Assembly (NCBI RefSeq): GCF_032921865.1
Contig: NZ_CP136684.1
Coordinates: 193,501 to 257,500, forward strand
DNA from: Thalassospira lucentensis
GTDB taxonomy: Bacteria; Pseudomonadota; Alphaproteobacteria; Rhodospirillales; Thalassospiraceae
Direction: 5' to 3'
Length of the DNA stretch: 64,000 nucleotides
Position numbers and translations under genes: made by a program
The notes under the pieces: generated by a model
What the model was told of the DNA's origin: nothing
Database searches by the model: none
The model's input: the letters and a program-made list of their open reading frames with translations, nothing else
Part shown: positions 25,601 to 41,346 of the stretch, piece after piece
How the letters are laid out: each line of letters opens with the position of its first letter
Numbering within the stretch: the stretch's first letter is position 1

Positions 25601-26125
25601 TTCCGCATGCAGCAGGCCGGCATTGATGTGCGCAATATCATCCTGCTTGATGCGATTGCCGTGCCCGATGCGGTCCGCGCCATATTGCGCAAGGGCGAGG
25701 CCGAATATCTTGCCGATATATTTGCCGAACTGGGCCTGGTCACGGTTGACGAATTGCGTCCGTTAACCCCCGAAGAACGCATCGACCTGTTACTCGAACG
25801 CGGCAAGAATTGCGATCTTCTGCCCGACGAGGCAGATCGCGGTACCATGCGCCGCCTGCTTGCGGTGTTCCAGAATAACGCACTGGCCGCCGTCCATTAT
25901 GTCCCACCGAAAATTGACGGTATTGATGTCCTGCTGCTGCGTCCGACAACCGAAACCCGCGCCGCACCCAGCATCGAAGGCGATCAATATAGCGGCTGGC
26001 AAAGGGTCGCGGGTAATGCCCTGACCCTTGAATGGGTGGGCGGCACCCACGGCTCGATGATGTTCGATCCCCATGTGATCGAAGTCGCCGAACGCATTCG
26101 CCGACATCTTGAAAAATCGAAATGA
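22601..26125 (+). CDS. ttcC: NRPS terminal subunit, A domain interrupted by a methyltransferase, PCP, thioesterase
   Basis: A 1174-aa protein completing the module whose C domain ends the preceding subunit. The adenylation domain starts at once: A1-like ISYADL near 62 and A2-like LKAGLAFVPLD near 106. It is then broken by a SAM-dependent methyltransferase (about 170-410, motif VLEIGCASG near 230) before A3 resumes with FTSGTTGTPKG near 450. So the insertion is between A2 and A3, not the common A8/A9 site. A carrier (GGHS, Ser859) and a type I thioesterase (GWSFGG, Ser990) follow. In the thalassospiramide scheme this module would install N-methyl-tyrosine and the TE would form the 12-membered lactone. 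The pocket (about D-G-V-D-V-G-A-V-S) does not itself tell me tyrosine. ATG overlaps the previous TAA by one base. Confidence 0.88.
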   Translation: MKIADFDFETLDTPTPGMDGIPDVPPSATTGSIIDRFASIAASYPHRIATRDETGEISYADLDRQSNRIAHFIAGLALQTESLVGVMTGRNRHYIAASLGVLKAGLAFVPLDPNVPLIRRTTLVRNAALPLIISEATHIGDLHQLQWRCKTVTNILCLDRDDIDTLTENHGSLMSVELWDHLAGDDADNILAGGWKSAFTGQPIAQSAMDAFGANARNKVADLVSRNARVLEIGCASGFTMKHVAPVVGTYVATDLSRRNVERTEALAINLGMTHVIGRQLGAHDIDVYEPGSFDLIIMNSVIENFPGYGYLRTVLTKAKTLLAPGGAIYLGNVWDADRRDDYLADLARFARETVGKGYNTRLDFLEDLFVPQCFLEDWAREQGGFAASRSAINADGFDPAPYTFDFVLTSDAAKHPVAPKKHRHDLAALNAANDQHPATVTSANDLAYVLFTSGTTGTPKGVMIEHGSVVNLAQSVLDTQLKQIGADDPDRALNLTCIAPFAFDGSIVQIFAAILNGHCLNITGSATRSDPEALHDLMVTNAIDQLDATPSLFSLLLDYWEENRLSCPARMVVLGGEAVSTRLVERFFALPGQTDRKLVNAYGPTECCVSSAQYVMTAHNHKQILPPPIGRAIQGVYLEICDDMGRPLPDGVPGEIRIGGAGVARGYLNDPILTAQKFVTDPNGNRVYRTGDMGRRRSDGEIIFLGREDGQIKVRGNRIELGEVEHALLTHPHIRRAAVVAHDRHQNGNVVLVAYVVTDDDAHACFDISACRAKLEQALPNYMVPSHLITMDDLPLTVNGKIDLSRLPVPENTDQVTGVTAKPLGSDHEKTVARLMGEILDCTIDDATADFFELGGHSVLAVQFLSKINKLTNVKIPLGDLFTCASVEKLAARISERENARHVKSPIVTVNASGTKPPMVCFHPVGGNVLCYQNLAREFGPDQPLYMVEAQGLEEGQNLQPTVEEMVAAYMPAIRQTVPGGPIHVIGWSFGGLLAFEAAFRMQQAGIDVRNIILLDAIAVPDAVRAILRKGEAEYLADIFAELGLVTVDELRPLTPEERIDLLLERGKNCDLLPDEADRGTMRRLLAVFQNNALAAVHYVPPKIDGIDVLLLRPTTETRAAPSIEGDQYSGWQRVAGNALTLEWVGGTHGSMMFDPHVIEVAERIRRHLEKSK

Positions 26126-26137
26126 TGGACTGAAAAC

Positions 26138-26899
26138 TCAGTCCCAGGGCAGGCTTGCCGGATCGAACCGCGTTTGATCCGGCAATGTCAGGCCAAGCCA
26201 CCCCTGCGCACCGGGCCAGATGATGGTGCGATACTGCCCGAAATTGGCGTACCGCACCTCAAAGCAGCCCCGGTTACACTCGATTGATGACGGCGCGTAA
26301 AGTTCAAGCGGCGTCATCATCCCCGTGGTAATGGTCTTGGCAAGGCTTTCGCGCGCCACCCAAAGCAGGCAGGCCGCCCCATGATCATCCAAATCATGGG
26401 CGCGGATCATCGTCTGTATATCTGGCGCGATCCCGTCCAGAATTGCGGGCACATCCCTCATCACCGGCAGATCAACATCAATGCCCAGCGGATGGGCACG
26501 ATGAAACACAAGCGCCACCGCAAACCGGTCCGAATGCGACAGCGAAACCGACATGCCCTGCACATCTTCGCCGCCGCCAACAATCATTGGCTGATCAAAA
26601 ACCCCTGATCCGATTTCAATCAATTGCGGATCAATCCCCGGTAAATGGGCCGCCAACGCGGCCTTCGCCGCCAACCGCCCGCTGATAAAACTTTTCCGGC
26701 GGCGATCATGCCGAAACCCCGACAGCCGGGCTTTTTCGGCGGCATGCAACTGGCTTTCTGCCAGTTTGTTACACCCGGCATCGTCCATATCCCCAAGATC
26801 AAAAACCGCCAGCGTCGCCCGCAGGATATCGGACGACACAAATGTGCCGGTGCCCTTCGGGCGCTCGAACACAAGGCGATGGGTTTTGATCGGGGGCAT
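26138..26899 (-). CDS. Sfp-type 4'-phosphopantetheinyl transferase
   Basis: A 253-aa protein with the Sfp/EntD family hallmarks in order: SLSHSD, LGIDVD (Mg2+/CoA-binding aspartates) and a W..RES.AK helix. It transfers phosphopantetheine from CoA to carrier-protein serines, so it is the obvious activator of the eight intact carrier domains encoded next door. It faces the megasynthase operon tail-to-tail with a 12-bp gap, so it is transcribed separately. The ATG has AAGG 8 bases upstream. It could also serve other carriers in the cell. Confidence 0.9.
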   Translation of the reverse strand: MPPIKTHRLVFERPKGTGTFVSSDILRATLAVFDLGDMDDAGCNKLAESQLHAAEKARLSGFRHDRRRKSFISGRLAAKAALAAHLPGIDPQLIEIGSGVFDQPMIVGGGEDVQGMSVSLSHSDRFAVALVFHRAHPLGIDVDLPVMRDVPAILDGIAPDIQTMIRAHDLDDHGAACLLWVARESLAKTITTGMMTPLELYAPSSIECNRGCFEVRYANFGQYRTIIWPGAQGWLGLTLPDQTRFDPASLPWD

Positions 26900-26997: not shown

Positions 26998-27558
26998 TCA
27001 GGCCTTGGCGGTCGTCGCACCTGCTGCCGGTTTGGCAGTGGTTTTGCCGCCTTTGACAAATTCGGACGCCTTGCGTTTGCCGTCTTCGAATTCGTCCTTG
27101 AAACGACCTTTCATTTCATCGGCGTCGAAATCGGCAACCGTTCCGCCCTTGGCAAAGTGCCAGGCGAAAACACGACCCAACGCATAGGTGCAGGCACCGG
27201 CAAAGGTCGGCATGGCGACAACGCCAAAGATCGTGCCGACAACCGGAACCTTGCGCACCAGTGCCGCCGTTGCATAACCGACACCGGTCATCGGCAGAAC
27301 CGTTGCAACCAGGGTCGAAATCGAATTCTTGATCGCGTTCTCGGAGAACGGAACACCGTAAATGTCGCAAAGTTTTGCAAGCATCCGCAGCTGGATGGTG
27401 CTGCTGGTGGCCATTTCAAGGAACGGGATCGGAACAAGACCACCAACCGCAGCATAAACGCTATGGCGATGGATGCAGTCACGGGACTGGGCACGAATTT
27501 CATCCGCCTTCGCGACGGCCACTTCTTCAGTCTCTTCGATGGTTTCTGCTTCGCTCAT
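26998..27558 (-). CDS. DUF697-like membrane-associated protein, copy 1
   Basis: A 186-aa protein. After an acidic N-terminus (about 1-25) comes the segment ...GGLVPIPFLEMATSS and QLRMLAKLCDIYGV, then two hydrophobic helices (LVATVLPMTGVGYATAALV; VGTIFGVVAMPTFAGACTYALG), as in DUF697 proteins. The C-terminus is rich in Lys/Ala. Function unknown. I prefer the ATG at 27558 because AGAGG lies 5-6 bases upstream; an in-frame ATG at 27618 would add 20 residues with no good ribosome site. It is clearly paralogous to the product of 29346-29960: both share VPIP, a Q-L-(R/K)-M-LA-(K/E)-L-(C/S)-D-(I/V)-YGV stretch and an ALGRVF motif. Confidence 0.75.
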   Translation of the reverse strand: MSEAETIEETEEVAVAKADEIRAQSRDCIHRHSVYAAVGGLVPIPFLEMATSSTIQLRMLAKLCDIYGVPFSENAIKNSISTLVATVLPMTGVGYATAALVRKVPVVGTIFGVVAMPTFAGACTYALGRVFAWHFAKGGTVADFDADEMKGRFKDEFEDGKRKASEFVKGGKTTAKPAAGATTAKA

Positions 27559-27659
27559 TATCGCCTCTTGAATGTCTACCTTCAGGTTGATGATCTGCAC
27601 GCAAAATTTATTCTTCAACTTTACCTGAACTAACCCGAAGTAGCAACGTGCAACACCCT

Positions 27660-29045
27660 TTATTTGCTACCGGTTTTTGAAATTTCAGGCTGCCCTGCAC
27701 TCTCGTGTGTCGCGACCGGTTCCATGTCGCTCTGTTTAACGACACCGCCCCCGCTACCACTGGATTGATCAAAGACCGGCGCAATCGATTTCAAAACATC
27801 TCCGGCGGTTTTACCCGCTGTTGAAACATCTTCTGACGCCCCTGCTGCCGGGCCTGTCGGGGCGGCCGGTTTCGTCGGGGGTGTGACCGGCTGCGTGTTC
27901 GAATTTGCCGCCGCAGGCCGTGCGCGTTTGCCTGACGGATCAGCAGGTTCGCGAACGCCGGGCGAAATCGCATTTTGCGGCGCGATTTCCTGCGACCGCG
28001 CATTAAGCGCCCCGGCATTCGGCAGGCTTTCGGCCGTATCGTTCACAAGCTCCGCCCCCGAACCGGAATCCGCACTGCTGGCCGTCGGTGCATCCGCGGT
28101 ATTGAGGATCACGGGCAGGCCATCCTTGCCGCCAATGATGATCGTCTTGCTGTTTTTCGATGTCGCAAGCGTCATGGTCGCTTCGATACCGCGCAGGCGC
28201 AGATATTCCTCGGTGATCGTTTTGGCGACGATATCCTGGAATTCACGAATACCTTCCGCCTCGATCTTCTTGCGCTGCTTTTCCTTTTCCTCTCGCGCCA
28301 GACGGAAATCATATTCCAGCATCGCCTGATACTGTTCGGCCTTGCGTTCAATCGCATCCGCCACGCGTTCCGGCAGTGTCACGGACCGGATCAGAACGTC
28401 TTCAACCGTCACCAGCCGCCCCTGGAAGCTTTGATTGACCAGCGACGATCCAAGTTCGTTGACCATGCGTTCAAGGATTTCCGCCTGAATGAAGGCACGG
28501 GTTTCGGTATAAAGCTGTTCAGGGGTGTAACGCGAAATCAGTTCACGCGCGTGCGATCCGATTTCCGGATATACAAGGACTTCGGCATAATTCGGCCCGA
28601 CCAGCTTGTGCAGCATCCCGACCGCTTCGCGGTTGATGCGATAACGCACCGCGATGTCGACTTCCATCGACAGGCCATTCGATGAAATCGTGTCATAAAC
28701 GCGCGCCTGATTTTGCAGGCGGGCGTCATAGATATACATTTCATCCCACGGGAAGATCATGTGAATACCTTCGCCGTAGCTTTTATCAACGACCGTCCCG
28801 CCAAAGAACCGGTACCACATCACCGCAACATGCCCCGCAGGCACGGTAATGAAAATCTGCGGCGCCAACGCGAAAATCGCGACCAGCAGGAACAGAAGAC
28901 CGATCAGAAAAGCCGTGCGCAACCGCCGCAGGCGTACGCCAGCACTAATGAAAAAGCGCCGCCAAAAGATCGACCATCGCCCTCTTTTGCGGGCGGTTCC
29001 GTTTTCGTCTGGTGCACCGGGTGCGACTGTCGCGCTATCAACCAT
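27660..29045 (-). CDS. SPFH/band-7 (prohibitin-like) membrane protein
   Basis: A 461-aa protein. A cytoplasmic N-terminus (about 1-40) leads into one membrane segment (AFLIGLLFLLVAIFAL). A band-7 domain (about 65-260) follows, with VPAGHVAVMWYRFFGG, EGIHMIFPWDEM and a conserved TVEDVLIRSVTLPE. Next is a charged coiled coil (REEKEKQRKKIEAEG), and a low-complexity Pro/Ala/Ser tail of about 120 residues. Such proteins form membrane-anchored oligomers that scaffold proteases or microdomains. Here it is flanked by two DUF697-like genes and a 65-aa membrane protein, suggesting a shared membrane complex (inference). The exact SPFH subfamily is not resolved. Confidence 0.82.
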   Translation of the reverse strand: MVDSATVAPGAPDENGTARKRGRWSIFWRRFFISAGVRLRRLRTAFLIGLLFLLVAIFALAPQIFITVPAGHVAVMWYRFFGGTVVDKSYGEGIHMIFPWDEMYIYDARLQNQARVYDTISSNGLSMEVDIAVRYRINREAVGMLHKLVGPNYAEVLVYPEIGSHARELISRYTPEQLYTETRAFIQAEILERMVNELGSSLVNQSFQGRLVTVEDVLIRSVTLPERVADAIERKAEQYQAMLEYDFRLAREEKEKQRKKIEAEGIREFQDIVAKTITEEYLRLRGIEATMTLATSKNSKTIIIGGKDGLPVILNTADAPTASSADSGSGAELVNDTAESLPNAGALNARSQEIAPQNAISPGVREPADPSGKRARPAAANSNTQPVTPPTKPAAPTGPAAGASEDVSTAGKTAGDVLKSIAPVFDQSSGSGGGVVKQSDMEPVATHESAGQPEISKTGSK

Positions 29046-29345: not shown

Positions 29346-29960
29346 TCACGCCGTTTTCCCGTCCTGATCGAATTTCAGGCCATCCTTGAATTTCTGGCGG
29401 AACTCGGCCTCCGCCTTCTTGGCGTCAAAATCCGCCATCGTCCCGCCTGCGGCGTAATGCTGCTGAAAAACCCGGCCAAGCGCATAGGTAAATGCCGCAT
29501 TGAAACCCGGCATGGTCACGATGCTCAGTGCCGATCCGACAACCGGCATCACCTTGGCAAGATTGGCAAATATCCCCGTCCCCAAAAGAGCCCGCCCCAA
29601 AACGCCGCTGGTAATGCACGCCGTTAAGGCCGCGATCACGGATTTGCCGCTGCTCTTGTTGAACGCAACACCGTAAACATCGCTCAGTTCCGCCAGCATT
29701 TTAAGCTGCACGGCAACCGTGGCCGCAGAATCGACAACAGGGATTGGAACAAAACCGGTCGTGGCCGCCCAAAGGGTATTGCGTTGCACAACACCACTTG
29801 CAAGACGGTGCTGTTTGCGCCGTTTCAGCACTTCAAGCGTTTCAGCCCCCATCACGTCCCCCGGTTTATTGTCCCGCGGCAAATCATAATCGCTAACTAT
29901 CGGCACTGCAAACCGAATCAAGGTTTTATACAGCCTTGACCCAACCCCCGATGCAATCAA
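29346..29960 (-). CDS. DUF697-like membrane-associated protein, copy 2
   Basis: Up to 204 aa, paralogous to the product of 26998-27558: TTGFVPIPVVDSAATVAVQ, MLAELSDVYGV, a hydrophobic stretch (IFANLAKVMPVVGSALSIVTM) and YALGRVFQQHYAAGGTMADFDAKKAE. The two copies even share the GGT-(V/M)-ADFDA motif near the C-terminus. The frame opens at a TTG (29958-29960) with a weak ribosome site. An ATG at 29852 preceded by GGGGGA is a credible shorter start (168 aa). Function unknown. Confidence 0.7.
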   Translation of the reverse strand: MIASGVGSRLYKTLIRFAVPIVSDYDLPRDNKPGDVMGAETLEVLKRRKQHRLASGVVQRNTLWAATTGFVPIPVVDSAATVAVQLKMLAELSDVYGVAFNKSSGKSVIAALTACITSGVLGRALLGTGIFANLAKVMPVVGSALSIVTMPGFNAAFTYALGRVFQQHYAAGGTMADFDAKKAEAEFRQKFKDGLKFDQDGKTA

Positions 29961-30058: not shown

Positions 30059-30841
30059 TTGAAGCTGTCTACCAAGATCGGGCTGGCCCTTTTCCTTGTG
30101 CTTGCAAGCGCCCTAAGCATGACCACGGTCCTGAACTATCTGCGATTCGACCAGACCCTGCACACCCTTCTGGCCCAGCGGATGACCGTGATCCTCAATG
30201 AAACCAGTCAGGATATCGTGGCCGGTATCGATCTGGGTTTGCGGCTGGAAAACATGGAAAACCTGCAACCAATCCTGAACCGGCGTCTGGATATGTCCAA
30301 CGATATCCGCAATGTCGCCGTTCTTGATTGTGATGGCACCATCATCAGCAACGCCGCGCGATCCCCCAATGATCAGGCGCTCTCTGGCGCGGCAATCGCC
30401 CAACAGGCCCGCGATGAGTGGATCGATTTCACACCGGGCATCGCCACCGCCGGGCAGGTCCTGCGCGACAGCCTCGGCCAATGCGCAGGGCAGGTCGTCA
30501 TTACGGCAAGCGCCGAAACCTCCGAAGCCAAGCTTGCCAATGCCTTCTCCGAAATGTGGAAATCGGCGGCCTTGGGCATGGGCATGATTATCCCCATTCT
30601 TGGCGTTCTGTTCATTCTTATGCGCCGCCGCCATCGCGTTTTCGAAGAACTGCACGAAGATCTGGCGCGCGCGGTTGCGGGCAAGGCCCCCAATATCCGC
30701 CCCCATGATGGCGATGTCCTGACCCAAAGCGAAATCGAACTGATTTCCCTGTACCGCGAAATCCGCGATCAGTTGCCGCACGAAACAAAAAAGGGCAGCA
30801 CCAGACGCCAATCGGAAACCTCGGCGGAGCCGCTGAAATGA
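30059..30841 (+). CDS. Two-TM sensor-like membrane protein
   Basis: A 260-aa protein. One membrane segment at about 7-27, an extracytoplasmic region of about 140 residues with two cysteines, a second membrane segment at about 177-194, then a short HAMP-like cytoplasmic tail with no kinase, GGDEF or methyl-accepting domain. The layout is that of a chemoreceptor or kinase sensor module without an output. TTG start with GGAG about 8 bases upstream. It overlaps the next gene by ATGA. It resembles the N-terminal third of that neighbour in topology, so the pair may form a heteromeric sensor (inference). Confidence 0.65.
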   Translation: MKLSTKIGLALFLVLASALSMTTVLNYLRFDQTLHTLLAQRMTVILNETSQDIVAGIDLGLRLENMENLQPILNRRLDMSNDIRNVAVLDCDGTIISNAARSPNDQALSGAAIAQQARDEWIDFTPGIATAGQVLRDSLGQCAGQVVITASAETSEAKLANAFSEMWKSAALGMGMIIPILGVLFILMRRRHRVFEELHEDLARAVAGKAPNIRPHDGDVLTQSEIELISLYREIRDQLPHETKKGSTRRQSETSAEPLK

Positions 30842-32844
30842 CCCTCTCTGCCAATCCCGATACCAAACCTGACACTCCGACCTCCCCTCATGGTGGCAAT
30901 ATCCGAAGCCGCCTGTTCCCCAAGGGCACGATCTGGATTCTGCTGCTGTTCAGCACAATCTCGCTTTGCATCGCACTGGTCGGGATTTCGTGGCGCGCCG
31001 CCGAGCTGGCGCGCGCCGATCTGCAAACCGAAATCCGTGAAAAGGCCGGGATCGAAGCCCGGGTTCTTGGCGAAAAGATCGAAAACGCCCTGCGACTTGG
31101 CATTCCGCTGCGCGAAATTGTCGGTTTTGAAACCGTGGTCTACCAGCTTCGCAATGGCGATCCCGATCTGGTTTTTGCCGCCATCACCGACAAGGCCGGC
31201 GACATCCTGCATGCAGGCGGTCTGTCATCGGATGAAATCGCCACCGCCCTTAAGGCACCGTCGGGCAATGATACCGCCTATATCGTCACCCGTCTGGACC
31301 TGCCCCGCGCCGAAGGGCAGGACGATATCGAAGTCGTCCTTGGGCATGCCCGTGCGGCCCTGATGCGCCCGGTGACGGATAATCTTTATGACATTGCGAT
31401 CATTTTCATCATCACGCTCGCCCTGTCGTTCGAGCTGATGTTGCTGGTGTTAACCGTCAATGTCGCCCTGCCGGTAAGGGTCGCGCGCAAGGTTCTGGAC
31501 AATGTGCGCGACCGCAAATTCACCCTGCTGCATGGCCAAAGCACCCATGACGAAATCGGCCAGTTCATGGAACGGATCAATTCCCTGATCAACACCACCG
31601 CCAAAAAGGTCGGAACCCATCCCCAGCGCGAACGCGAGGTAAAGCTGATCGGTGTCCGCATGCTGGCCTTCATGTTCGTCCTTGCCGAAGAACTGGCCCG
31701 GCCAATCATGCCCGCCTTCTTTAGCCAGGTCACATCCCACAGCATCGACGGGCAGCTTGGTGCTGGCGTGGTCATGGCGGTTCATCTTCTGATGGTTGCC
31801 CTTGCCATGCCGATCTGCAGCCTGTTTCAGGAACAGGTCGGGTCACTTCGCATGTATCTGTGCGGCGCGTTTCTGGCGACACTTGGCCTGATCGGTACCG
31901 CCTTTGCCGGGGGCATATGGGATCTTGTACTGTGGCGGGCATTGTCGGGGATCGGTTACGCCACCACCTTTGTCGCCTGTCAGTCCTATGTCCTTGATGC
32001 CACCAATGACAGCAACCGCACACAGGGTACTGCCATGATGGTCAGCGGCATCATGCTGGCCGATATCTGCGGCCCGGCAATTGGCGGGATTGTTGCGGGC
32101 CATTTCGGGCCGGACATGACCTTTATCGCCGGTGCGACCATTGCGTTTCTCGCAGTCCTTCTGGCCTTCTTCCTGATGGATAACATGGTGCGCGGCAAAA
32201 CCCCGCCACCGATCCCCACACGTGCCGCCCTTCGCGCCATGCTCGGCAATCGCCGTTTGCAGGTCCTGATCCTGTTCGCCGCCATTCCCGCCAAACTGAT
32301 CCTCAGCGGCTTTTTATATTACCTGACCCCGATGATCCTGCTGCAATCGGGTGCGACCACGGCTGAAACCGGGCGGGTGATCATGCTTTATGGGCTGGTC
32401 GCGATCCTGACCGGCTGGGCAGCGGCAAAATGGACCGACAAGAACCAGAACGAAACCCGCGCGGTCGGCATTGGTGGCGGGCTAACAGCAGCAGGCTTGT
32501 TGCTGGCGGGCTGGCTTCCGGAATATGCCCTGTTTGCGGTTGCCGTCGCCCTGCTTGGTCTGGCGCAGGCGACCTCAATCCCCGCACAGCTTTCCGCCAG
32601 CTTGAAACTCAGCAAGGATTTCACCAAGGATCACGGCACCGGCCCGGTTCTTGCCGTCCTGCGTCTTGCCGAACGGCTGGGCGGGGCTGCAGGTCCGTTG
32701 CTTGCCGCCGGTCTGACCCTTCTGGTCGGAACAACACACGCGGTTCTGATCTTCGGGGCCTTTGCTGCTGTTTCGGTTCTGTGCTTTGAACTTCTGATCG
32801 GCCATGTGCCCCCAGAACAGAAAAACGAGGGAGGAACGAAATGA
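30838..32844 (+). CDS. Fusion of a periplasmic sensor module with an MFS transporter
   Basis: A 668-aa protein. Residues about 30-52 are a membrane segment; about 53-180 a periplasmic domain with AAITDKAGDILHAGG, typical of Cache-like sensors; about 183-208 a second membrane segment. A HAMP-like linker follows (about 209-265, ending DEIGQFMERINSLI). From about 270 to 660 there is a complete major facilitator domain: about 12 hydrophobic segments and MFS-like WRALSGIGYATTFVACQSYV. No kinase or other output domain is present. It is translationally coupled on both sides (ATGA at 30838 and 32841). A transporter whose gating or assembly responds to a periplasmic ligand is the simplest reading, but that is inference. 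Confidence 0.75.
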   Translation: MTLSANPDTKPDTPTSPHGGNIRSRLFPKGTIWILLLFSTISLCIALVGISWRAAELARADLQTEIREKAGIEARVLGEKIENALRLGIPLREIVGFETVVYQLRNGDPDLVFAAITDKAGDILHAGGLSSDEIATALKAPSGNDTAYIVTRLDLPRAEGQDDIEVVLGHARAALMRPVTDNLYDIAIIFIITLALSFELMLLVLTVNVALPVRVARKVLDNVRDRKFTLLHGQSTHDEIGQFMERINSLINTTAKKVGTHPQREREVKLIGVRMLAFMFVLAEELARPIMPAFFSQVTSHSIDGQLGAGVVMAVHLLMVALAMPICSLFQEQVGSLRMYLCGAFLATLGLIGTAFAGGIWDLVLWRALSGIGYATTFVACQSYVLDATNDSNRTQGTAMMVSGIMLADICGPAIGGIVAGHFGPDMTFIAGATIAFLAVLLAFFLMDNMVRGKTPPPIPTRAALRAMLGNRRLQVLILFAAIPAKLILSGFLYYLTPMILLQSGATTAETGRVIMLYGLVAILTGWAAAKWTDKNQNETRAVGIGGGLTAAGLLLAGWLPEYALFAVAVALLGLAQATSIPAQLSASLKLSKDFTKDHGTGPVLAVLRLAERLGGAAGPLLAAGLTLLVGTTHAVLIFGAFAAVSVLCFELLIGHVPPEQKNEGGTK

Positions 32845-33857
32845 CCTTTTCCCTTCTCCCCGCCTTTCGTCTGTTGGGCATTCTTGTGGCCATCGCCGTC
32901 TCAATCTTTGCTCCGGCGGCATATGCACAATCGCAACCGGACCCGCTTAAAATCGCCATGGTCCTGTGGCGCGGCGAAACCAATGTCGAACAGGGATTTC
33001 GCGCCTATTTCGATGAAAACAGCATTGCCGTCGACCTGACCATTTATGACACTGCGCGCGATCTGTCGCGCGTGCCTGCCATCATCGATCAGATCCGTAA
33101 AGACCCGCCCGATCTGGTTTACACATGGGGCACCGGGATCACGTCAGCTGTGGTTGGCAAATATGATGCCGTCGATCCGGTACAAAACATTACCGATCTG
33201 CCGGTGGTTTATGTGATGGTTTCATCGCCATGGAAAACCGGCATTGCCGCCCCTGCGGGCCAAAGCCGCCCCAATGTCACGGGTGCCGCCCACATCGCCC
33301 CGCTTCCCGCTCAGATCAATGCCATCCGCGCCTATCGCCCGATGGACAAACTTGGTGTGGTCTATAACAGCCGCGAAGACAATTCCGTTTCCAACGTCGC
33401 CGATCTGACCGAACTGGGCCGCGAAATGGGCTTCGAAGTCCTGGCCGCTCCGCTCGGCAGCAATGGCGAACCCTCACAGGATGACATTCCCCCTGCCGTC
33501 GCCGAACTCGCCCGCAAGGGGGCCGACATCCTGTATATCGGACCGGACAATTTCATCGGCAATTATCGCGATACCCTGACCGATGCCGGTTTTGCCAACG
33601 GGCTTGCCGCCTTTAGCGCGACCGAACTTGAAGTCCGCGACGGCCACGCCATGCTGGGCCTTGTCAGCCGTTATGAACTTGTCGGCCGCCTTGCCGCCAG
33701 CAAGGTCGAACAGATCCTGATCGATGGCATATCGCCGGCTGATATCCCGGTCGAAACGCTTGACCGGTTTTCCTATCTGATCCGGCTGTCATCGGCGCGC
33801 AAGCTTAAACTCTATCCGCCGCTGTCGCTGCTTGATTACGCGGAAGTCATCGAATGA
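32841..33857 (+). CDS. ABC-type substrate-binding protein (ABC_sub_bind/TrpX-like)
   Basis: A 338-aa protein with a signal peptide (hydrophobic 11-30, AYAQ cleavage). The mature part matches the periplasmic binding proteins of the ABC_sub_bind type: DPLKIAMVLWRGETNVEQGF, DLVYTWGTGIT, a central LGVVYNSREDNSV and a late ADIPVETLDRFSYLI. No ABC permease or ATPase is nearby. It is instead coupled by ATGA overlaps to the sensor-MFS fusion and a GNAT gene. It may therefore present a ligand to the periplasmic sensor domains rather than feed an ABC importer (inference). Confidence 0.75.
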   Translation: MTFSLLPAFRLLGILVAIAVSIFAPAAYAQSQPDPLKIAMVLWRGETNVEQGFRAYFDENSIAVDLTIYDTARDLSRVPAIIDQIRKDPPDLVYTWGTGITSAVVGKYDAVDPVQNITDLPVVYVMVSSPWKTGIAAPAGQSRPNVTGAAHIAPLPAQINAIRAYRPMDKLGVVYNSREDNSVSNVADLTELGREMGFEVLAAPLGSNGEPSQDDIPPAVAELARKGADILYIGPDNFIGNYRDTLTDAGFANGLAAFSATELEVRDGHAMLGLVSRYELVGRLAASKVEQILIDGISPADIPVETLDRFSYLIRLSSARKLKLYPPLSLLDYAEVIE

Positions 33858-34525
33858 GCACCCTGACCCGGCTTGATCCATCCCACCTTCCGGCCATCAT
33901 CGCCCTGCATCACAGGGTGATCGCCGATCTGCCGCCGGGCAATGCCGCCACCGAAACCGATCAGTTCTTTGCCGATCATCTTGATGCCTGCGGGCAAATC
34001 TTTGGCGTCTTTGACGATGATCGTCTGATGGCCTATTGCGTGCTGGGATTGCCGCGTGATGGTGATCCCAATTTCGGCACCGACCATCACCTGCCCCCCG
34101 ATCTGCTGGGCCAGGTCGCCCATATCGACGGGGTCGCCGTTGATCCAAATTGGCGCGGACAGGGATGGCAACGCAAAATGGTTGAATACCGGATCGAAAT
34201 GGCCCGGAAATTCGGACGAACCATCGCGCTCAGCACCGTCGCCCCGACCAATTTTCCAAGCCTGATCAGCACCGTATCAACCGGCCTTGCCATTCATGGC
34301 TTGATCGCAAAATTTGGCGGAAACCGGTTCTTGCTGCGACGGGATATCGGCCCCGATCAGGATGCAAAATCCGCCCGCGCCCCTGATACAGCCATCTGGT
34401 GCGCCAGCGACGATCTTGCGACCTGTCGAAAATTGCTTGATGACGGGTTTATCGGCCAGTTTTGCCAGTCATCGGGCCGCGGAACCGCCCCGCGCATCGG
34501 CTGGGCGCCGCTTCCGTCCGCTTAA
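33854..34525 (+). CDS. GNAT-family N-acetyltransferase
   Basis: A 223-aa cytoplasmic protein. The GNAT acetyl-CoA loop is visible as HIDGVAVDPNWRGQGWQRKMVEYRI (the core RGQGW lies near residue 100), with the preceding beta-strand region GVFDDDRLMAYCVLG. Substrate unknown. It is the last gene of the coupled four-gene set, with ATG overlapping the TGA of the binding-protein gene. It ends 9 bases before the convergent TAXI gene. Confidence 0.75.
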   Translation: MSTLTRLDPSHLPAIIALHHRVIADLPPGNAATETDQFFADHLDACGQIFGVFDDDRLMAYCVLGLPRDGDPNFGTDHHLPPDLLGQVAHIDGVAVDPNWRGQGWQRKMVEYRIEMARKFGRTIALSTVAPTNFPSLISTVSTGLAIHGLIAKFGGNRFLLRRDIGPDQDAKSARAPDTAIWCASDDLATCRKLLDDGFIGQFCQSSGRGTAPRIGWAPLPSA

Positions 34526-34534
34526 TATCGCGGC

Positions 34535-35800
34535 TTACTGCTGATAGGTATAATTCCATTTGCGCTGCCCTTTCGGGTCGGCCTGCTGATAATAGGGCTG
34601 CCAGTCGCAGGCATGCGCATCGGTTTCCCAATAACACGCCGCCCCCTTATGGAACGGCAGGAAATTGCCCTTTTTGAACATGTCATCAGCAACGACACTC
34701 CGGAATGTCGGATACATTTCCTTCATCCGGTCGATATTTTCATGCACGATCCGCGTGATCCAGTACACCACATACGGATCAGCCGGTTCATAGGCAATCA
34801 GCGACGCCTTGAAGCCATAGGATGAAATCGCTTCTTCCTGTGCACTATATGTCTTTGCTGGCAAAACCTGATTAAAGAAATACTGGTTTGCCTTGACCAT
34901 TTCATCGGTCAAAGGCCCGCCCATGCCAACAACCCGCGCCCCGCAGCCAAGCGTATCTTCGATCAGCGACGCCGGATGCCCGATCCAAAGACCGAACGCA
35001 TCGATATAATTCTCGCAGATGCCAAGCTCGTTATAATCCTGCGCAACGCCGTAAACCGTATCAAGATCGTCCAGCGTCAATTTGTATCGCGACAGAAGTT
35101 CAAGCCACAATTCCCGCGATGCCGATCCTTCCGGTCCGATATTGATGCGTTTGCCGCGCAGATCGGCGATCGATTCAATATCGGAATCATTGCGCACCAC
35201 CAGCAATCCCATTTCGTCATGCAACGACATCACCGACCGCGCACCGGGGATCGGCGCAATGCCTTTCTGCGCTTCCCAATTATTGTTCGACTGCACGATG
35301 GCAAGCTGCACCCGCCCTTCTTTCATCAGGCGGATATTGCTGCCGACCCCCTGGGATCGCAACGGCACGCAATGCACCCGATGGCGTTCAAAGGTCCGGC
35401 TCATCATGTCGCAAATCTGGGCGGCAACCTTGAAATACACGCCACTCGTACTGCCGCTGTAAATGGCCGCGTAATAGGATCGTTCCGTCTGGCCATCACC
35501 GGCAATCACATCGACATTGCTTAACGCCGCCAGACTTTCCGGGTCGGTTGCGCGGCGGCGATACTGCGACAGCGGAATGGCATCGGGCTTGTAAATCAGG
35601 CCGTCGATCAGATCGGGATTGGTTTTTGCCGGGTCGATGATGGCATCGTCATAAGTATCGACATCGATATCAGGCAGGACATCAACCGGGGACATATCGG
35701 CATTTGCGTCCTCGGCAACGGTACCGCTTCCCTGTGCATGGGCACCCACGGCCCCCGCTGACAACAGCATCGCCAGCATACCGGTCGCAATCATTCTCAT
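34535..35800 (-). CDS. TAXI-family TRAP solute-binding protein
   Basis: About 421 aa. A signal peptide (MRMIATGMLAMLLSAGAVG, cut near AHAQ) is followed by an acidic spacer. Then comes the TAXI core: AAIYSGSTSGVYFKVAAQIC, VHCVPLRSQGVGSNIRLM, QLAIVQSNNNW, INIGPEGSASRELW and a late DPYVVYWITRIV. TAXI proteins deliver small organic acids or amino acids to TRAP permeases, but no permease is adjacent, so this is an orphan. I use the ATG at 35800; a TTG at 35818 is also open. The N-terminal extension of about 80 residues before the core is longer than usual for the family. Confidence 0.8.
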   Translation of the reverse strand: MRMIATGMLAMLLSAGAVGAHAQGSGTVAEDANADMSPVDVLPDIDVDTYDDAIIDPAKTNPDLIDGLIYKPDAIPLSQYRRRATDPESLAALSNVDVIAGDGQTERSYYAAIYSGSTSGVYFKVAAQICDMMSRTFERHRVHCVPLRSQGVGSNIRLMKEGRVQLAIVQSNNNWEAQKGIAPIPGARSVMSLHDEMGLLVVRNDSDIESIADLRGKRINIGPEGSASRELWLELLSRYKLTLDDLDTVYGVAQDYNELGICENYIDAFGLWIGHPASLIEDTLGCGARVVGMGGPLTDEMVKANQYFFNQVLPAKTYSAQEEAISSYGFKASLIAYEPADPYVVYWITRIVHENIDRMKEMYPTFRSVVADDMFKKGNFLPFHKGAACYWETDAHACDWQPYYQQADPKGQRKWNYTYQQ

Positions 35801-35991
35801 GCCGAGCTCAAAACGCAAAACCGTCCACTCATCGTTAGTGATGAATCAATCCCCGCATCCCAATGACCATATCCTAATGGATCATCGGGAAACCCGTCGA
35901 GAGCGAAGATGAATTAATATCCCTATTCTCAGCGATTTAACACAATCATCTTCACGACAACCCTGCACGATCGTTGATATTCAGATTGTGT

Positions 35992-36073: not shown

Positions 36074-37156
36074 ATGACGTCCATCATCGCCCTTGATCCC
36101 GGGCGCAACGATATTTATCAGGCGTTCGACCTGATATCCTCCTGGCCGGAATATCGCCAAAGCCCGCTGATCCGCGCCAACGGCCTTGCCCGCGAACTGG
36201 GTCTTGGGACCGTCTGGATCAAGGATGAAAGCAAACGGTTCGGTCTGGGCGGGGTCAAGGCCCTTGGCGCCCCCTATGGCCTGAAACAGCAGCTTTTGAA
36301 ACGCGGCCTGACACCCGGAAGCCCCCAATGCGCGGACTATACCGCCGTTGCCGCAACCGATGGCAATCACGGCCTTGCCGTTGCATGGGCGGCCCGGAAA
36401 TTCGGCTGTCACGCGCGGATTTATGTCGGATCCGAAGTCGATCAGGCCCGCATCACGCGCATCATTGATAACGGCGCTGAAATCGTCCGGATCGACGGCA
36501 CCTATGATGATGCGGTCCTTGCCGCCGAACATGCCGCGCAATCGCCCGATATCCTTCTGATCACCGATACCGACTATGGTCACGAACTCGACGTCACCCG
36601 CGACATCATGGCGGGTTACGCGGTTCTGGGGATCGAATGCGCCCGGCAGCTTCAGGCTGAAAACATCACCCCCGATCATGTTTTCCTGCAATGCGGGGTT
36701 GGCGGCATGGCGGCGGGTTGCGCCATCGGGCTCTGGCATGAAAGCGGCCAGAAACCGAATGTCTGCACGGTCGAGGCAACAAACGCCGCCTGCATTCAGG
36801 CAAGCCTCGCAACCGGCGAACTGACATCGGTTCCGGGCAAACTCCTGACCCGCATGATCGGGCTGTCGTGTGGCAAACCGAGTCTCCCGGCATTTGAAAT
36901 CCTGCGCGAAGTCTCCACCCAAAGCATCGCGATTGACGATGATGTCGCCCTTATCGTTCAGAACGCGCTTTCCGCCGGGATCAATGGCGACGCCCCGCTT
37001 GAAACATGGGATACCGGCATTGCCGGAATTGCCGGGCTTTGGCATGTCGCAAAAAACAACGATCTTCGTGCCCGTTTTGGTCTGAATGCCCAAAGCAACG
37101 TGCTTGTGATCAACAGCGAAGGCCCCATTCCGCTGCCCTACCGCGCAACGATCTGA
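36074..37156 (+). CDS. Diaminopropionate ammonia-lyase-like PLP enzyme
   Basis: A 360-aa fold-type II PLP protein. The PLP lysine lies in GGVKALGAPY (Lys62) after KDESKRFGLGG. ATDGNHGLAVAWAA is close to the DpaL motif, and CGVGGMAAGCAIG is the phosphate-binding glycine loop. DpaL converts 2,3-diaminopropionate to pyruvate and ammonia; related enzymes act on serine-, threonine- or hydroxyaspartate-type substrates. It is shorter than typical DpaL (about 400 aa), so the true substrate is open. It stands alone between an orphan binding protein and the peptide exporters. It may be a housekeeping amino-acid catabolic gene or a tailoring/supply enzyme; neither is shown. ATG with GGAG 7 bases upstream. 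Confidence 0.75.
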   Translation: MTSIIALDPGRNDIYQAFDLISSWPEYRQSPLIRANGLARELGLGTVWIKDESKRFGLGGVKALGAPYGLKQQLLKRGLTPGSPQCADYTAVAATDGNHGLAVAWAARKFGCHARIYVGSEVDQARITRIIDNGAEIVRIDGTYDDAVLAAEHAAQSPDILLITDTDYGHELDVTRDIMAGYAVLGIECARQLQAENITPDHVFLQCGVGGMAAGCAIGLWHESGQKPNVCTVEATNAACIQASLATGELTSVPGKLLTRMIGLSCGKPSLPAFEILREVSTQSIAIDDDVALIVQNALSAGINGDAPLETWDTGIAGIAGLWHVAKNNDLRARFGLNAQSNVLVINSEGPIPLPYRATI

Positions 37157-37281: not shown

Positions 37282-38931
37282 ATGAAATTGCTCGAACTGT
37301 TGTCTTGGGGAGATAACAGACTGATGGCCCGGCTTGCCTTTGCCGGTGCGCTATCGGGTGCGGGCAGTGCGGTCCTGCTGGGGCTCGTCAATACCGCCGC
37401 CGAAGGCATCGCCGAAAACGGCGTGGACCGGGTTGACTGGCTTCTGGCAGGCGGCTTCATCGCCCTTGCCGTGGTCTATTTCCTGGCCGAAGTTTTCCTG
37501 CTTGCCAATATCTCGACCCAGATCGAACAGGGCATAGACAAGGTGCGTCACAAACTTCTGGGTCAGATTGCGCATGCCGACTTCGCCCAGCTTGAAACCT
37601 TTGGTCAGGCCCGCCTGTTTGACAGCATAACCCAAAGCACACAGGTCATTTCGCAAAACTCGCACATGATCGGCATGTCGTTCCGATCCCTTCTGCTGGT
37701 TGTTGCGGTGATGTGCTATGTTTTCTGGCTCTCCACGCTGGCCTTTTTCCTGATCGTGCTGGTGATCGGGGCCGGGATCGTCATTTACCTGCGCATGGGC
37801 AAAGAGCTCGGCATGTGGTTTGGCAAACTCCATCACGCCGAAAATGCCCTGTTTGGCAAGATCGCCGATCTGTTTTCCGGCATCCGCGAAGTCCGGATGT
37901 GGTCGTCGCGCAGCAGCACCCTTTTCAATGCCTTTTCGGCAAATTCACTGCAAAAGGAACAGATCACCACTGAAACCCACAGCCTCATGTTCCGGCAGAT
38001 GATCATGGGTATGACGGCCTTTTATGTCCTGCTGGCCGTGATCGTCTTTATCGTGCCGGTCTATACCGATAATTTTGGCTCCACGGTTTCCAAGGTCAGC
38101 ACCGCCGTCCTGTTCATGATCGGCCCGATCAGCACGGTGGTGCAGGCAATGGCGGTACTGGGTTCGGCGGAACAGGCTGCTGCGCGTATGGTCACCCTGT
38201 CACAGGATTTGCGCGCGATTGCCGAACCGGTTGAAGAAAACGGCACCACACTGCCCGATACATTTTCAAACATCGCGTTCGAGGATGTCTGCTTTACCTA
38301 TCCCAACCGCGACCCGCGCCACGGCTTCATGCTTGGCCCGATCAGCCTCTCGGTCAAAAAGGGCGAACTGATCTTTATTACCGGCGGCAACGGGGCGGGA
38401 AAATCGACCCTGATCAAGCTTCTGACAGCCCTTTATCGGCCGGTATCCGGAGCCATCCGGTTTGATGATATCCAGCTTGGCGCGCAAACCATCGCCTCCT
38501 TCCGTCACAAGATCGCCACCGTGTTTTCCGATTTCCACCTGTTTTCCGAATTGCACGGATCGGCCGAAATTGATCCCGACGAAGCCACCCACTGGCTGAA
38601 CCTGTTTGAGCTGTCACATGTGACGGGCATTCGCGATGGCAAATTCGTTTCCACCGCCCTGTCGGCCGGGCAACGCAAACGGCTGGGCCTGATCACCGCC
38701 CTGCTCGAACATCGCCCGATCCTTGTTCTCGATGAATGGGCCGCCGATCAGGACCCGTATTTCCGTAAAAAATTCTATTACGAAATCCTGCCACAGATAA
38801 AGGCACGCGGTACGACCATCATCGCCGTCACCCATGACGACCATTATTTCGATGCTGCCGACCGCCGCCTGCATCTCGAAGCTGGCACCCTGCACGAAAT
38901 TGACCGCAACGACCCGCGTGGAAGGATCTGA
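37282..38931 (+). CDS. SyrD/PvdE-type peptide exporter, half 1 (ABC transporter TMD-NBD)
   Basis: A 549-aa protein. A six-helix membrane domain fills about 1-310. The ATPase domain has Walker A GGNGAGKST near 369, signature LSAGQRKR and the Walker B region LVLDEWAADQDP. The DEWAADQDP form is typical of exporters for non-ribosomal peptides. The frame is open well upstream, but the ATG at 37282 gives a normal family length and has GGGG upstream. The second half-transporter begins 3 bases after the stop, so the pair probably forms a heterodimer exporting the lipopeptide (inference). Confidence 0.85.
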   Translation: MKLLELLSWGDNRLMARLAFAGALSGAGSAVLLGLVNTAAEGIAENGVDRVDWLLAGGFIALAVVYFLAEVFLLANISTQIEQGIDKVRHKLLGQIAHADFAQLETFGQARLFDSITQSTQVISQNSHMIGMSFRSLLLVVAVMCYVFWLSTLAFFLIVLVIGAGIVIYLRMGKELGMWFGKLHHAENALFGKIADLFSGIREVRMWSSRSSTLFNAFSANSLQKEQITTETHSLMFRQMIMGMTAFYVLLAVIVFIVPVYTDNFGSTVSKVSTAVLFMIGPISTVVQAMAVLGSAEQAAARMVTLSQDLRAIAEPVEENGTTLPDTFSNIAFEDVCFTYPNRDPRHGFMLGPISLSVKKGELIFITGGNGAGKSTLIKLLTALYRPVSGAIRFDDIQLGAQTIASFRHKIATVFSDFHLFSELHGSAEIDPDEATHWLNLFELSHVTGIRDGKFVSTALSAGQRKRLGLITALLEHRPILVLDEWAADQDPYFRKKFYYEILPQIKARGTTIIAVTHDDHYFDAADRRLHLEAGTLHEIDRNDPRGRI

Positions 38932-38933
38932 TC

Positions 38934-40607
38934 ATGCTGCTTATTGATCTTCTGCGATCCCGAACCCGCATCGATCTGCGGCTTGCCGTTGGCCTACTGT
39001 CACTGGCATCGATTGCCACCACCATGGTGCTGATCATCGTCAACCTGGCCGCCGAACAGGCCGAAGACGGCGTTGCCAGCATGCGCTATCTCGGCATGAT
39101 GGGCCTGTCGCTGATCGGCTATATCTGGGCCCAGAAGAAATCCAGCGACATGATCGCCGCCGAGGTCGAACACATCCTCCATCAGCTCCGCCTTGGCATG
39201 TTTGATCGCGTGCGAAAAGCCGCCCCCGATACCCTGTCCAGGGTCGGACAGGGTGCGGTTCAAACCGCGCTGACCCAGGAAATGCAAACCGTATCCGCCG
39301 CCCTGCCCCTGATGCTGAACGGCGTGCAGCAGGTGGTCCTGATCATCTGTGTCGCGGCCTATCTTGCGTGGCTGTCGACCTTTGCCTTTGTGATGATTTC
39401 GGTTCTCGCCATCGTGGTTTCGACCATCCACCTGCAACGCATCCGTAAAATCAACGATGCGACCCGGGATGCGATTGATGATGAAAACCTGCTGTTTGGC
39501 GGGTTGTCCGATCTGCTGCATGGCTTCAAGGAAGTCAAAATGAACAGTCGGCGTCGTGCCGCACTTCTGGGTGCGCTCAATGACCGATCCATTCGGGCAC
39601 GCGATACCAAATCCGTGGTCAAGGCCCAGTGGTCACGCGAATTCGCCCTGATCCAGTTGGCCTTCTACGGCATGATGGCGGCCATGGTGTTCATCGTTCC
39701 GATCTTCACATCGGACTATCATGACGTTGCCGTGCAAACCACGACCGCGGCCCTGTTCATGATCGGCCCGATCGGGGCGGTGGTTGCCGCCGTGCCCAGC
39801 TTTACTGATTCCGATGTGGCGCTCCGCAAGATCAAGGATATCGATGATCAGCTCGAAGACGCCCTTGACGCCCAGCACGCTCAGGAGGCCACGAACGGCA
39901 CATCATCGCCCGAAACCCTTGAAAAATTCCAGGATGCCCTTGGCAATATCGCCGAAATCAGCCTGCGTGACGTTCGTTTCTCCTATCCCGGCACATCGGA
40001 CAGTCCGGGTTTTGCCGTCGGCCCGATCAATGCCACCTTCAAAAAGGGTGAAATCACCTTCATTACCGGTGGCAATGGGGCGGGAAAATCGACGATCATC
40101 GCCGTTCTGACCGGCCTTCGCCCGGCGGCAGGCGGATCAATCATGGTCAATGACTGCCCCGTGCCGACCGACGCCCTGCAGCTTTATCGCGATCATTTCG
40201 CGACCGTGCTTTCAGACTATCACCTGTTTCGCGAACTCTACGGCATTGATGATATCGACCCGAAGCGGGTCGAAACACTGCTCAAACAGATGGAAATCGA
40301 CGACAAGGTCGAACTGGATGATAACGCCTTTTCAACGACCTCGCTGTCACAGGGGCAACGCAAACGCCTTGCCCTGATCGCGGCTCTGCTCGAAGAAAAG
40401 CCGGTTCTTGTCCTTGATGAATGGGCCGCCGATCAGGACCCGCATTTCCGCTCGGTCTTCTATGAAAAAATCCTGCCCTCCTTACGCAAACAGGGCAAGA
40501 TCATCATCTGTGTGACCCATGATGATCGTTGGTTTGATACCGCCGATACGATCTATCATGTCCGCGATGGCGAATTTGTCGACGGACGTCAAACCACCCA
40601 AGCCTGA
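38934..40607 (+). CDS. SyrD/PvdE-type peptide exporter, half 2 (ABC transporter TMD-NBD)
   Basis: A 557-aa paralogue of the preceding gene: six membrane segments in about 1-310, Walker A GGNGAGKST near 379, signature LSQGQRKR, LVLDEWAADQDP and a final VTHDDRWFD switch. Both nucleotide sites look intact, so neither half is obviously non-catalytic. It starts 3 bases after the first half ends, indicating translational coupling. The product converges with the type II thioesterase gene (4-bp gap). Confidence 0.85.
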   Translation: MLLIDLLRSRTRIDLRLAVGLLSLASIATTMVLIIVNLAAEQAEDGVASMRYLGMMGLSLIGYIWAQKKSSDMIAAEVEHILHQLRLGMFDRVRKAAPDTLSRVGQGAVQTALTQEMQTVSAALPLMLNGVQQVVLIICVAAYLAWLSTFAFVMISVLAIVVSTIHLQRIRKINDATRDAIDDENLLFGGLSDLLHGFKEVKMNSRRRAALLGALNDRSIRARDTKSVVKAQWSREFALIQLAFYGMMAAMVFIVPIFTSDYHDVAVQTTTAALFMIGPIGAVVAAVPSFTDSDVALRKIKDIDDQLEDALDAQHAQEATNGTSSPETLEKFQDALGNIAEISLRDVRFSYPGTSDSPGFAVGPINATFKKGEITFITGGNGAGKSTIIAVLTGLRPAAGGSIMVNDCPVPTDALQLYRDHFATVLSDYHLFRELYGIDDIDPKRVETLLKQMEIDDKVELDDNAFSTTSLSQGQRKRLALIAALLEEKPVLVLDEWAADQDPHFRSVFYEKILPSLRKQGKIIICVTHDDRWFDTADTIYHVRDGEFVDGRQTTQA

Positions 40608-40611
40608 TCCA

Positions 40612-41346
40612 TCACGCAATCAGCGCATCCTTGACCACGCGCACGATATCATCCCCGGCATCACGCAGGAAAAAATGCCCGCCGGGCAAAACATGCTTGG
40701 CAAAGTCTCCCGTGGTTGCCGCCCCCCAGTCATCCAGTTCATCCGGCACCGGGTTCGGATCATCCGCCCCGCCAAAGGCGGTAATCGGGCAGGACAGTTT
40801 GGGCAATCCGGTCGAAACCGCGGTTTCCGACAATCTGAAATCCGCCCTAAGGCTGGGCTCAAACAGGGCGCGATATTCCGCATTTTCCAGAATTTCCGCA
40901 GGCGTCCCGCCATAATTGGCAATCCCCCGCCAGAACTCATCCGATGACAGATGATGCAACGGCGCCCGATGCCCGGCCACATTCGGCCCCCGCCTTGCGG
41001 CAACAAACAGATGAAACGGCACAGCCATCCCCGCCTGTTGCAGATGACACGCCAGATGATGGGAAATCAGCGCCCCCATCGAATAACCGAAAAACGCAAA
41101 CGGCTGATCCATAAAGGGCTTTAATCCCGCGGCGACGGCCTCAACCATCGCCGGAAGATCATCAATCACCGGATCACCAAACCGCTGCTCACGCCCCGGC
41201 AGATTGACCGGCACCACATCGATATCATCGGGGAATTGTGTCAGCCATGGCCGATAGGCCAACGCCCCACCCCCGGCAAACGGAAAACAGAACAGCCGCA
41301 ACCGGGCACCAGCGGTTGCATGATCATTGACCCAAACGTTTCGCAC
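40612..41346 (-). CDS. Type II thioesterase (assembly-line proofreading)
   Basis: A 244-aa alpha/beta hydrolase of the TEII/GrsT type: FCFPFAGGGALAYRPW, VNLPGREQRFG, the nucleophile elbow GYSMGA and a late GGHFFLRD with the catalytic His. These enzymes hydrolyse stalled or mis-primed acyl groups from carrier proteins, so it most likely services the megasynthase upstream although 14 kb lies between. It is on the opposite strand to all other biosynthetic genes except the PPTase. GTG start with GGGAA 7 bases upstream. Confidence 0.88.
   Translation of the reverse strand: MRNVWVNDHATAGARLRLFCFPFAGGGALAYRPWLTQFPDDIDVVPVNLPGREQRFGDPVIDDLPAMVEAVAAGLKPFMDQPFAFFGYSMGALISHHLACHLQQAGMAVPFHLFVAARRGPNVAGHRAPLHHLSSDEFWRGIANYGGTPAEILENAEYRALFEPSLRADFRLSETAVSTGLPKLSCPITAFGGADDPNPVPDELDDWGAATTGDFAKHVLPGGHFFLRDAGDDIVRVVKDALIA

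Follow-up and report, generated by a model that had tools for sequence, protein, structure and literature searches.

In the UhpC/UhpB/UhpA system, a protein with the shape of a major facilitator superfamily (MFS) transporter serves as a receptor and forms a membrane signalling complex with a histidine kinase. Periplasmic binding proteins of the TrpX/PF04392 family normally serve ATP-binding cassette (ABC) importers. Partner switching by RsbU/RsbV/RsbW includes the Btr control of a type III secretion system (T3SS). In CbrA (PMC7096432), an SLC5 transporter domain is fused to a sensor kinase, which unites transporter and sensor in one polypeptide. Features that recall these systems meet in a four-gene locus of Thalassospira lucentensis, found in a 64,000-nucleotide stretch of the chromosome (G000:C2:193501-257500, hereafter the window). 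It encodes a sensor-like protein, a fusion of a sensor to an MFS transporter, a TrpX-like binding protein, and a GNAT acetyltransferase. The solved structures nearest to the MFS half include the drug/proton antiporter (DHA)-type proteins NorA, EmrB and VMAT, and many relatives of the locus lie beside genes with SpoIIE, STAS and HATPase_c_2 domains, two of them near a T3SS.

The gene structure, homologies, conservation and neighbourhoods described below show, at the level of sequence, that these four genes are a real and widespread bacterial module. The best explanation of the whole, to which we give an even chance of being correct, is that this is a transferable membrane module coupling the sensing of an extracellular ligand to an export-type MFS transporter.

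The four genes and their conservation

The genes lie on the forward strand in the order gene 1 (S1, 30059..30841, 260 amino acids, TTG start), gene 2 (the sensor-HAMP-MFS fusion, 30838..32844, 668 amino acids, Pfam MFS_1 2.7e-35), gene 3 (the PF04392 or TrpX-like periplasmic substrate-binding protein, 32841..33857, 338 amino acids, ABC_sub_bind 6.9e-21) and gene 4 (the GNAT acetyltransferase, 33854..34525, 223 amino acids, Acetyltransf_1 2.1e-9). All three junctions in the open reading frames of 30059-34525 are ATGA overlaps of 4 bases, just as the earlier note had described them in position, size and overlap. At related loci, the 4-base overlap between gene 1 and the fusion was found in 35 of 47 pairs by our own gene calling, 12 of the 35 being Thalassospira orthologs. 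The between-locus distances of genes 1, 2 and 3 are also correlated (Spearman 0.36-0.59, equalled by 0 to 10 of 2000 permutations) across 27 loci (26 and the window; 21 once close relatives are dropped), in a comparison that retains the relatedness of the species. Because the overlaps recur at related loci and the gene distances correlate, the four-gene arrangement is more than chance.

The fusion is 99.7 percent identical to its counterpart in T. lucentensis MCCC 1A02072, and among 27 further Thalassospira genomes, 13 carry a full-length fusion at more than 60 percent identity, which makes 14 of 28 once the genome under study is included; a distant second type of module occurs in two Thalassospira genomes, G006 and G007. 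With at most two candidates scored per genome, matches to the fusion at E<=1e-60 were found in 24 of 385 genomes from the class and 9 of 398 from the phylum, both tallies including the genome under study and G006; five of the nine matches in the phylum sample are outside the class. Conservation of the other genes was assessed at 36 loci outside the ortholog group of the window, which were picked by the fusion, so that the fusion itself is not counted. They comprise 34 genomic loci (L048-L054, L069 and L087-L112) and two plasmid loci, from Azospirillum brasilense Sp7 (L118) and Vibrio sp. THAF190c (L119), with L034, L038, L055 and L056 excluded as duplicates; L069 and L102 are cut at contig ends, and L106 is a contig of 4.6 kb.

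The sensor of gene 1, separate or fused, is present at 34 of these 36 loci (all except L104 and L106), and the binding protein likewise at 34, the two misses being the truncated loci L069 and L102. A GNAT of the same subfamily as in the window is found at 10 (L048, L052, L053, L088, L091, L094, L097, L101, L112 and L118), while L087 and L092 carry GNATs of other kinds. The proposal that the four genes travel together thus holds for the first three, although the GNAT follows them at only 10 of 36 loci. In Azospirillum brasilense Sp7, the order of all four genes is identical to that in the window.

Sensor, transporter and ligand-handling parts

Gene 1 encodes a transmembrane (TM) segment, a Cache-like ectodomain, a second TM segment and a short cytoplasmic tail, which agrees with its earlier description as a two-TM sensor lacking an output domain. 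It is not an unrelated sensor, however: a profile of 33 gene-1 proteins, compared by hhalign with one of 36 fusions, aligns over 232 columns (probability 98.5, E 2.8e-15), which makes gene 1 a paralogue of the fusion's sensor half. No Pfam family was matched by gene 1 at E<=0.01, and a weak NCBIfam match to the kinase ZraS (E 0.0084, profile positions 21-117 of 460) covers the front of that protein and not its kinase part. The HisKA and HATPase_c domains of a two-component sensor kinase were found in neither gene 1 nor gene 2 at Pfam E<=1.

The fusion consists of a sensor at approximately residues 50-185, a HAMP-like segment at approximately 205-260 and an MFS domain at approximately 270-660 (best MFS_1 stretch 276-589); profile, domain and alignment evidence favours its reading as a receptor-type head and a HAMP-like part joined to a full MFS domain. 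Scanned one by one, 1 of 31 gene-1 proteins scores for sCache_3_2 and 2 for dCache_1, and among 34 fusions HAMP scores in 11 and sCache_3_2 in 6 at E<=0.01. The fusion alignment contains a P...DEIG pattern that we take to be HAMP-like, and the fusion profile matches a histidine-kinase structure over the HAMP stretch (whole-sequence E 4.3e-6). The names Cache and HAMP are applied to the proteins of the window because relatives score for these domains, because of the HAMP-like pattern and because of the match to the histidine-kinase structure. At six of the 36 outside loci (L054, L105, L107, L110, L111 and L112), both sensors and the MFS domain are joined in a single chain, and these forms argue for a physical complex of gene 1 with the fusion.

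The MFS profile matches 38 solved sequences at E<=1e-5, mostly of exporters (VMAT, VAChT, NorA, EmrB, QacA-type and EfpA), and the multidrug resistance superfamily ranks first, below the cut-off, when the fusion is compared with NCBIfam. Among 34 fusions, E285 in TM1 is kept in 33 and R367 in TM4 in 33, the motif C glycines G412 and G416 in 32 and 34, and R609, E612 and R613 in all 34. The pair of TM1 Glu and TM4 Arg and motif C are presumably motifs of DHA-type antiporters. The window's fusion possesses motif C as well as the TM1 acid and TM4 Arg, in keeping with a DHA-type MFS exporter, and its MFS half is probably, with some doubt, a working domain of exporter type.

Gene 3 has a signal peptide, recognised by eye, and a WRG motif near its N-terminus that is not kept in all relatives and is lacking from the other PF04392 protein of this genome; its solved relatives are 3lft, 6hni and 3lkv. 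The assignment to PF04392 confirms the earlier view of gene 3 as a binding protein of ABC type. As to the absence of ABC partners, no import-type partner was recognised on reading the gene list of the window, which was scanned in part and was the extent of the search. TrpX/PF04392 proteins are normally part of an ABC importer, and gene 3, with its WRG motif, is an apparent orphan. Gene 4 is weakly akin to acetyltransferases of amino-acid type. Because of the TrpX kinship of gene 3, the weak kinship of the GNAT and the presence of amino-acid enzymes nearby, we infer that the ligand may be amino-acid-like.

Genes beside the relatives and around the window's module

In 14 of 34 genomes, representing 12 genera, the stretch retrieved around the module holds a SpoIIE match (PF07228), against 0.30 expected if the SpoIIE genes of each genome were placed at random; the 14 include G404 and G074, which have the least typical modules. 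By tblastn, RsbW-like genes occur at 10 loci, two of which are the query loci themselves; Pfam was used to check those of L096 and L101, and it also identified STAS genes at L089 and L096. A fusion of a paralogous sensor to SpoIIE is encoded at both L098 and L099. At six loci (L091, L094, L096, L097, L101 and L112) an output-type enzyme is preceded by a second sensor pair, made up of a gene-1-like protein and a sensor-headed near-copy of the fusion with a membrane part that the main MFS profile does not match. The near-copies of L096, L097, L101 and L112 also lack a Pfam MFS_1 match at E<=0.01. L091 and L094 had been taken for SpoIIE neighbours by tblastn, and neither is within the 14 of 34; the output position of L091 is occupied by a cyclase with dCache-HAMP. 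A histidine kinase is found at L104, and relatives of this kinase at L054 and L107.

Secretion genes are also found beside the module. Downstream of the L108 module come genes of VgrG type and DUF6931, and that of L110 is situated among ClpB-type AAA+, TssG and FHA genes of a type VI secretion system (T6SS); L109, L111 and L119 resemble these two by gene order, as judged without a domain scan. The second type of module in G006 and G007 (L052 and L053) adjoins genes read from the sequence as T3SS genes, and a CesT-type chaperone was confirmed by Pfam at L053, where a patatin-like gene is also nearby. Because related loci so often adjoin signalling and secretion genes, these neighbourhoods point to a role in regulation at least as much as in transport.

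Several enzymes and additional binding proteins were noted near the module. A gene resembling ketopantoate hydroxymethyltransferase (KPHMT) is present beside the binding protein at L089 (5677-6663), L090 (6949-7914) and L049 (6549-7478, by eye), and there are genes of ATP-grasp type at L098, L107 and L118, a formyltransferase-like gene at L095 and an alanine racemase gene at L101. Extra binding proteins of other families are encoded at L100 (6889-7866) and L110 (6583-7305) according to Pfam and, by reading, at L051 (18147-19397) and in the window (34535-35818); in L100, an NMT1_3 (TAXI-like) protein follows the binding protein.

In the window itself, no output gene (SpoIIE, cyclase or kinase) was recognised next to the module. 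A partner-switching system borne by the window, with a SpoIIE phosphatase and partners of the RsbV and RsbW types, was dropped from consideration, as the window contains no SpoIIE. The module is embedded instead in a block of genes. Upstream, on the reverse strand, are genes for a DUF697-type membrane protein (26998..27618) and an SPFH/band-7 protein (27660..29045), both named by reading and recall, and a second DUF697-type protein (29346..29960, by reading), which is the divergent neighbour of gene 1. Downstream are the TAXI-type binding protein (34535..35818, reverse strand, by reading) and, on the forward strand, a pyridoxal phosphate (PLP)-dependent enzyme (36074..37156; PALP 2e-50, diaminopropionate ammonia-lyase-like by reading) and two ABC genes (37282-38931, ABC_tran 3.5e-29, and 38934-40607, by reading), which look on reading like half-transporters of the type that exports cyclic peptides. 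The block (DUF697, SPFH, DUF697, module, TAXI, PLP enzyme and two ABC genes) is kept with small changes in the Thalassospira orthologs. Genome G037, of another family, also keeps it, with no adjacent nonribosomal peptide synthetase (NRPS) gene within the 20 kb read and with NRPS matches on other contigs.

Surrounding this block in the window is a cluster of NRPS and polyketide synthase (PKS) genes that the earlier note did not report. Three genes on the forward strand (661-7041, 7041-22601 and 22601-26125, identified by domain scan) are accompanied by a gene resembling that of a phosphopantetheinyl transferase (26138-26899, by reading) and by a free thioesterase gene (40612-41262). Counted by condensation/adenylation and ketosynthase domains, with some carrier domains unscored, the genes of 661-26125 specify seven modules, closing with adenylation, methyltransferase (MT), thiolation and thioesterase (TE) domains; the first gene carries an acyltransferase (AT) domain. 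In a review (PMC5577590), the thalassospiramide cluster is given seven modules (section 2.2) and is described in the text as trans-AT, and the scheme legend has MT and TE but no AT. The two have seven modules, MT and TE in common, whereas the AT domain is seen only in the first gene of the window. Except for this domain, the cluster fits the thalassospiramide type.

Among the 14 Thalassospira genomes that bear the module, 11 have a nearly full-length copy of the last NRPS gene; in 10 of them it stands beside the block on the same contig, whereas G015 has it on a separate contig. Only one of 14 module-less Thalassospira genomes has it: in G023 (L120, 2813-9381) the gene is cut short in its 3' part, beside genes that read as transposase- and resolvase-like. 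In four further genomes, the matches are only partial, at 32 percent. The resulting table (11 and 3 against 1 and 13) gives a Fisher p of 3.4e-4, uncorrected for descent. Strict dependence of the module on the NRPS is not supported by G018, G020 and G021, which keep the block and have no match to the third NRPS gene at E<=1e-60.

Interpretation and comparison with known systems

The sensor pairing, the ligand class, the direction of export, the role of the GNAT and the output are predicted from these features. The gene 1 protein and the fusion's sensor half, as homologous Cache-like receptors, would most likely form a heterodimer across the membrane, in which a single HAMP-type rod controls, or reads, a single MFS domain. 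In the periplasm, the ligand would be presented to the sensor pair by the orphan binding protein, and the MFS domain would export this ligand, guessed to be amino-acid-like. The GNAT, most likely cytoplasmic, would act on the same ligand class, making or disarming the ligand. In many relatives, the complex probably signals its state to a phosphatase of the dCache-HAMP-SpoIIE type, by partner switching, or else to a cyclase or histidine kinase, and would act through these on a T3SS, a T6SS or other functions. In the window, the module probably tunes the export of, or the response to, a compound connected with the block that holds the peptide-type ABC exporters.

Several observations weigh against this explanation. 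Gene 1 and the fusion of the window do not reach E 0.01 for Cache or HAMP, no Cache structure was found when the PDB was searched with the gene-1 profile, and no stretch over the HAMP region passes alone in the match to the histidine-kinase structure. One locus that contributes to both the SpoIIE and the kinase counts, L104, encodes an MFS protein that lacks the sensor head. Uptake-type transporters also score on the MFS half: the galactonate transporter is among the structures matched, the PgtP uptake family is second in NCBIfam (2.3e-13, below the cut-off), and LacY_symp scores in 9 of 34 fusions. Of 34 fusions, 10 carry Asp as the motif A acid, none of them from the window clade, whose 10 rows have Glu or Gly in its place, and P413 of motif C is kept in 20 of 34; because these two residues are poorly kept, transport competence is uncertain. 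G018, G020 and G021 bear the module and have no match to the NRPS gene. The genome under study has a single SpoIIE, which lies about 2.66 Mb from the module on the same contig (C2:2884764-2885339, L117), and a SpoIIE match is present in each of the 28 Thalassospira genomes searched, whether or not they carry the module. The L117 protein has ATPase-like and receiver-like parts and an adjoining STAS-like gene, by reading; as a private partner of the module it is unsupported, since the match in all 28 genomes lies in a frame of about that length.

It is also possible, although we put this forward only tentatively, that the module represents an undescribed class of membrane signalling unit, in which a Cache-like heterodimer with a HAMP rod ending in an MFS domain is loaded by a free binding protein. 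Taken jointly, and with the same reserve, an outside ligand would open the exporter, or the cell would read the flux through the pump; the unit would be placed ahead of partner switching, cyclases, kinases, T3SS, T6SS or a lipopeptide cluster; and, by extension, a variable enzyme (GNAT, KPHMT-like, ATP-grasp or formyltransferase-like) would make a molecule that is exported and then sensed, in a self-contained loop.

Among the alternatives, the one that fares best, although it is unlikely, is a pure receptor in which a non-transporting MFS domain, together with the binding protein, controls an output enzyme distinct from it, in the manner of UhpC. The output enzymes found next to the module in many relatives, the second sensor pairs with near-copies that the main MFS profile does not match, and the absence of the motif A Asp from the window clade all speak for it. 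On the other hand, the near-copy of L091 still scores for Pfam MFS_1 (1.7e-8), the main copy retains E285 and R367, which a receptor would not need, and the copy in the window has no recognised output gene beside it.

It is improbable that the module is instead an export or self-protection part of the thalassospiramide-type cluster, such that the MFS and ABC proteins export the lipopeptide, the GNAT or PLP enzyme tailors it or protects against it, and the binding protein recaptures it. The association of the module with the last NRPS gene described above is in its favour, and the review (PMC5577590) reports that, beyond the core cluster, non-producers of thalassospiramide lack genes for efflux, for signal transduction and for the metabolism of amino acids. 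Our guess is that the block of the window fits these missing genes. However, the core genes of the module and the GNAT subfamily have other settings too, among them Azospirillum and the vicinity of T3SS and SpoIIE genes, and three Thalassospira genomes carry the block with no match to the last NRPS gene.

The earlier model, in which the ligand of the binding protein is imported through the MFS domain and then acetylated in the cytoplasm, is very improbable and the least likely of the readings weighed: a binding protein, a transporter and a GNAT do share one operon, and some uptake families score lower down on the MFS half, but the nearest solved relatives of that half are mostly proton-antiport exporters, TM1 Glu and TM4 Arg are kept, motif C of the window clade is of antiporter type, PF04392 proteins normally serve ABC importers, and 26 of the 36 outside loci lack the window-type GNAT.

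Thus, the module is real and wider than the earlier note could see, with a function that is predicted. If ligand sensing is indeed coupled to an export-type MFS domain in this way, the direct wiring of receptor head to HAMP to transporter would join the few known transporter-sensors, and weapons and export systems as dissimilar as T3SS, T6SS and lipopeptide export would share one front end. It would also be a concrete candidate for the signal transduction and efflux genes reported missing from thalassospiramide non-producers, and its simple predictions could be tested in Thalassospira or in Azospirillum brasilense Sp7.

The claim that no described system has this set agrees with our literature searches, which covered titles and abstract openings for part of the matches and yielded no description of the fusion or of the four genes together. 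NorA, EmrB and VMAT are not known to possess a sensor head or HAMP, or to work with a binding protein. The RsbU/RsbV/RsbW systems differ in having SpoIIE at hand, which the window lacks nearby, and a sensing module with an MFS domain and a binding protein is not known to belong to the systems described. Unlike UhpC, the exporter-like MFS domain of the window is preceded by a sensor head and HAMP of its own and accompanied by an orphan binding protein, with no kinase recognised beside it. CbrA ends in its kinase, whereas the fusion of the window begins with its sensor and ends, without a kinase, in its transporter. The module would be a variant of transporter-coupled sensing that is new relative to the literature found.

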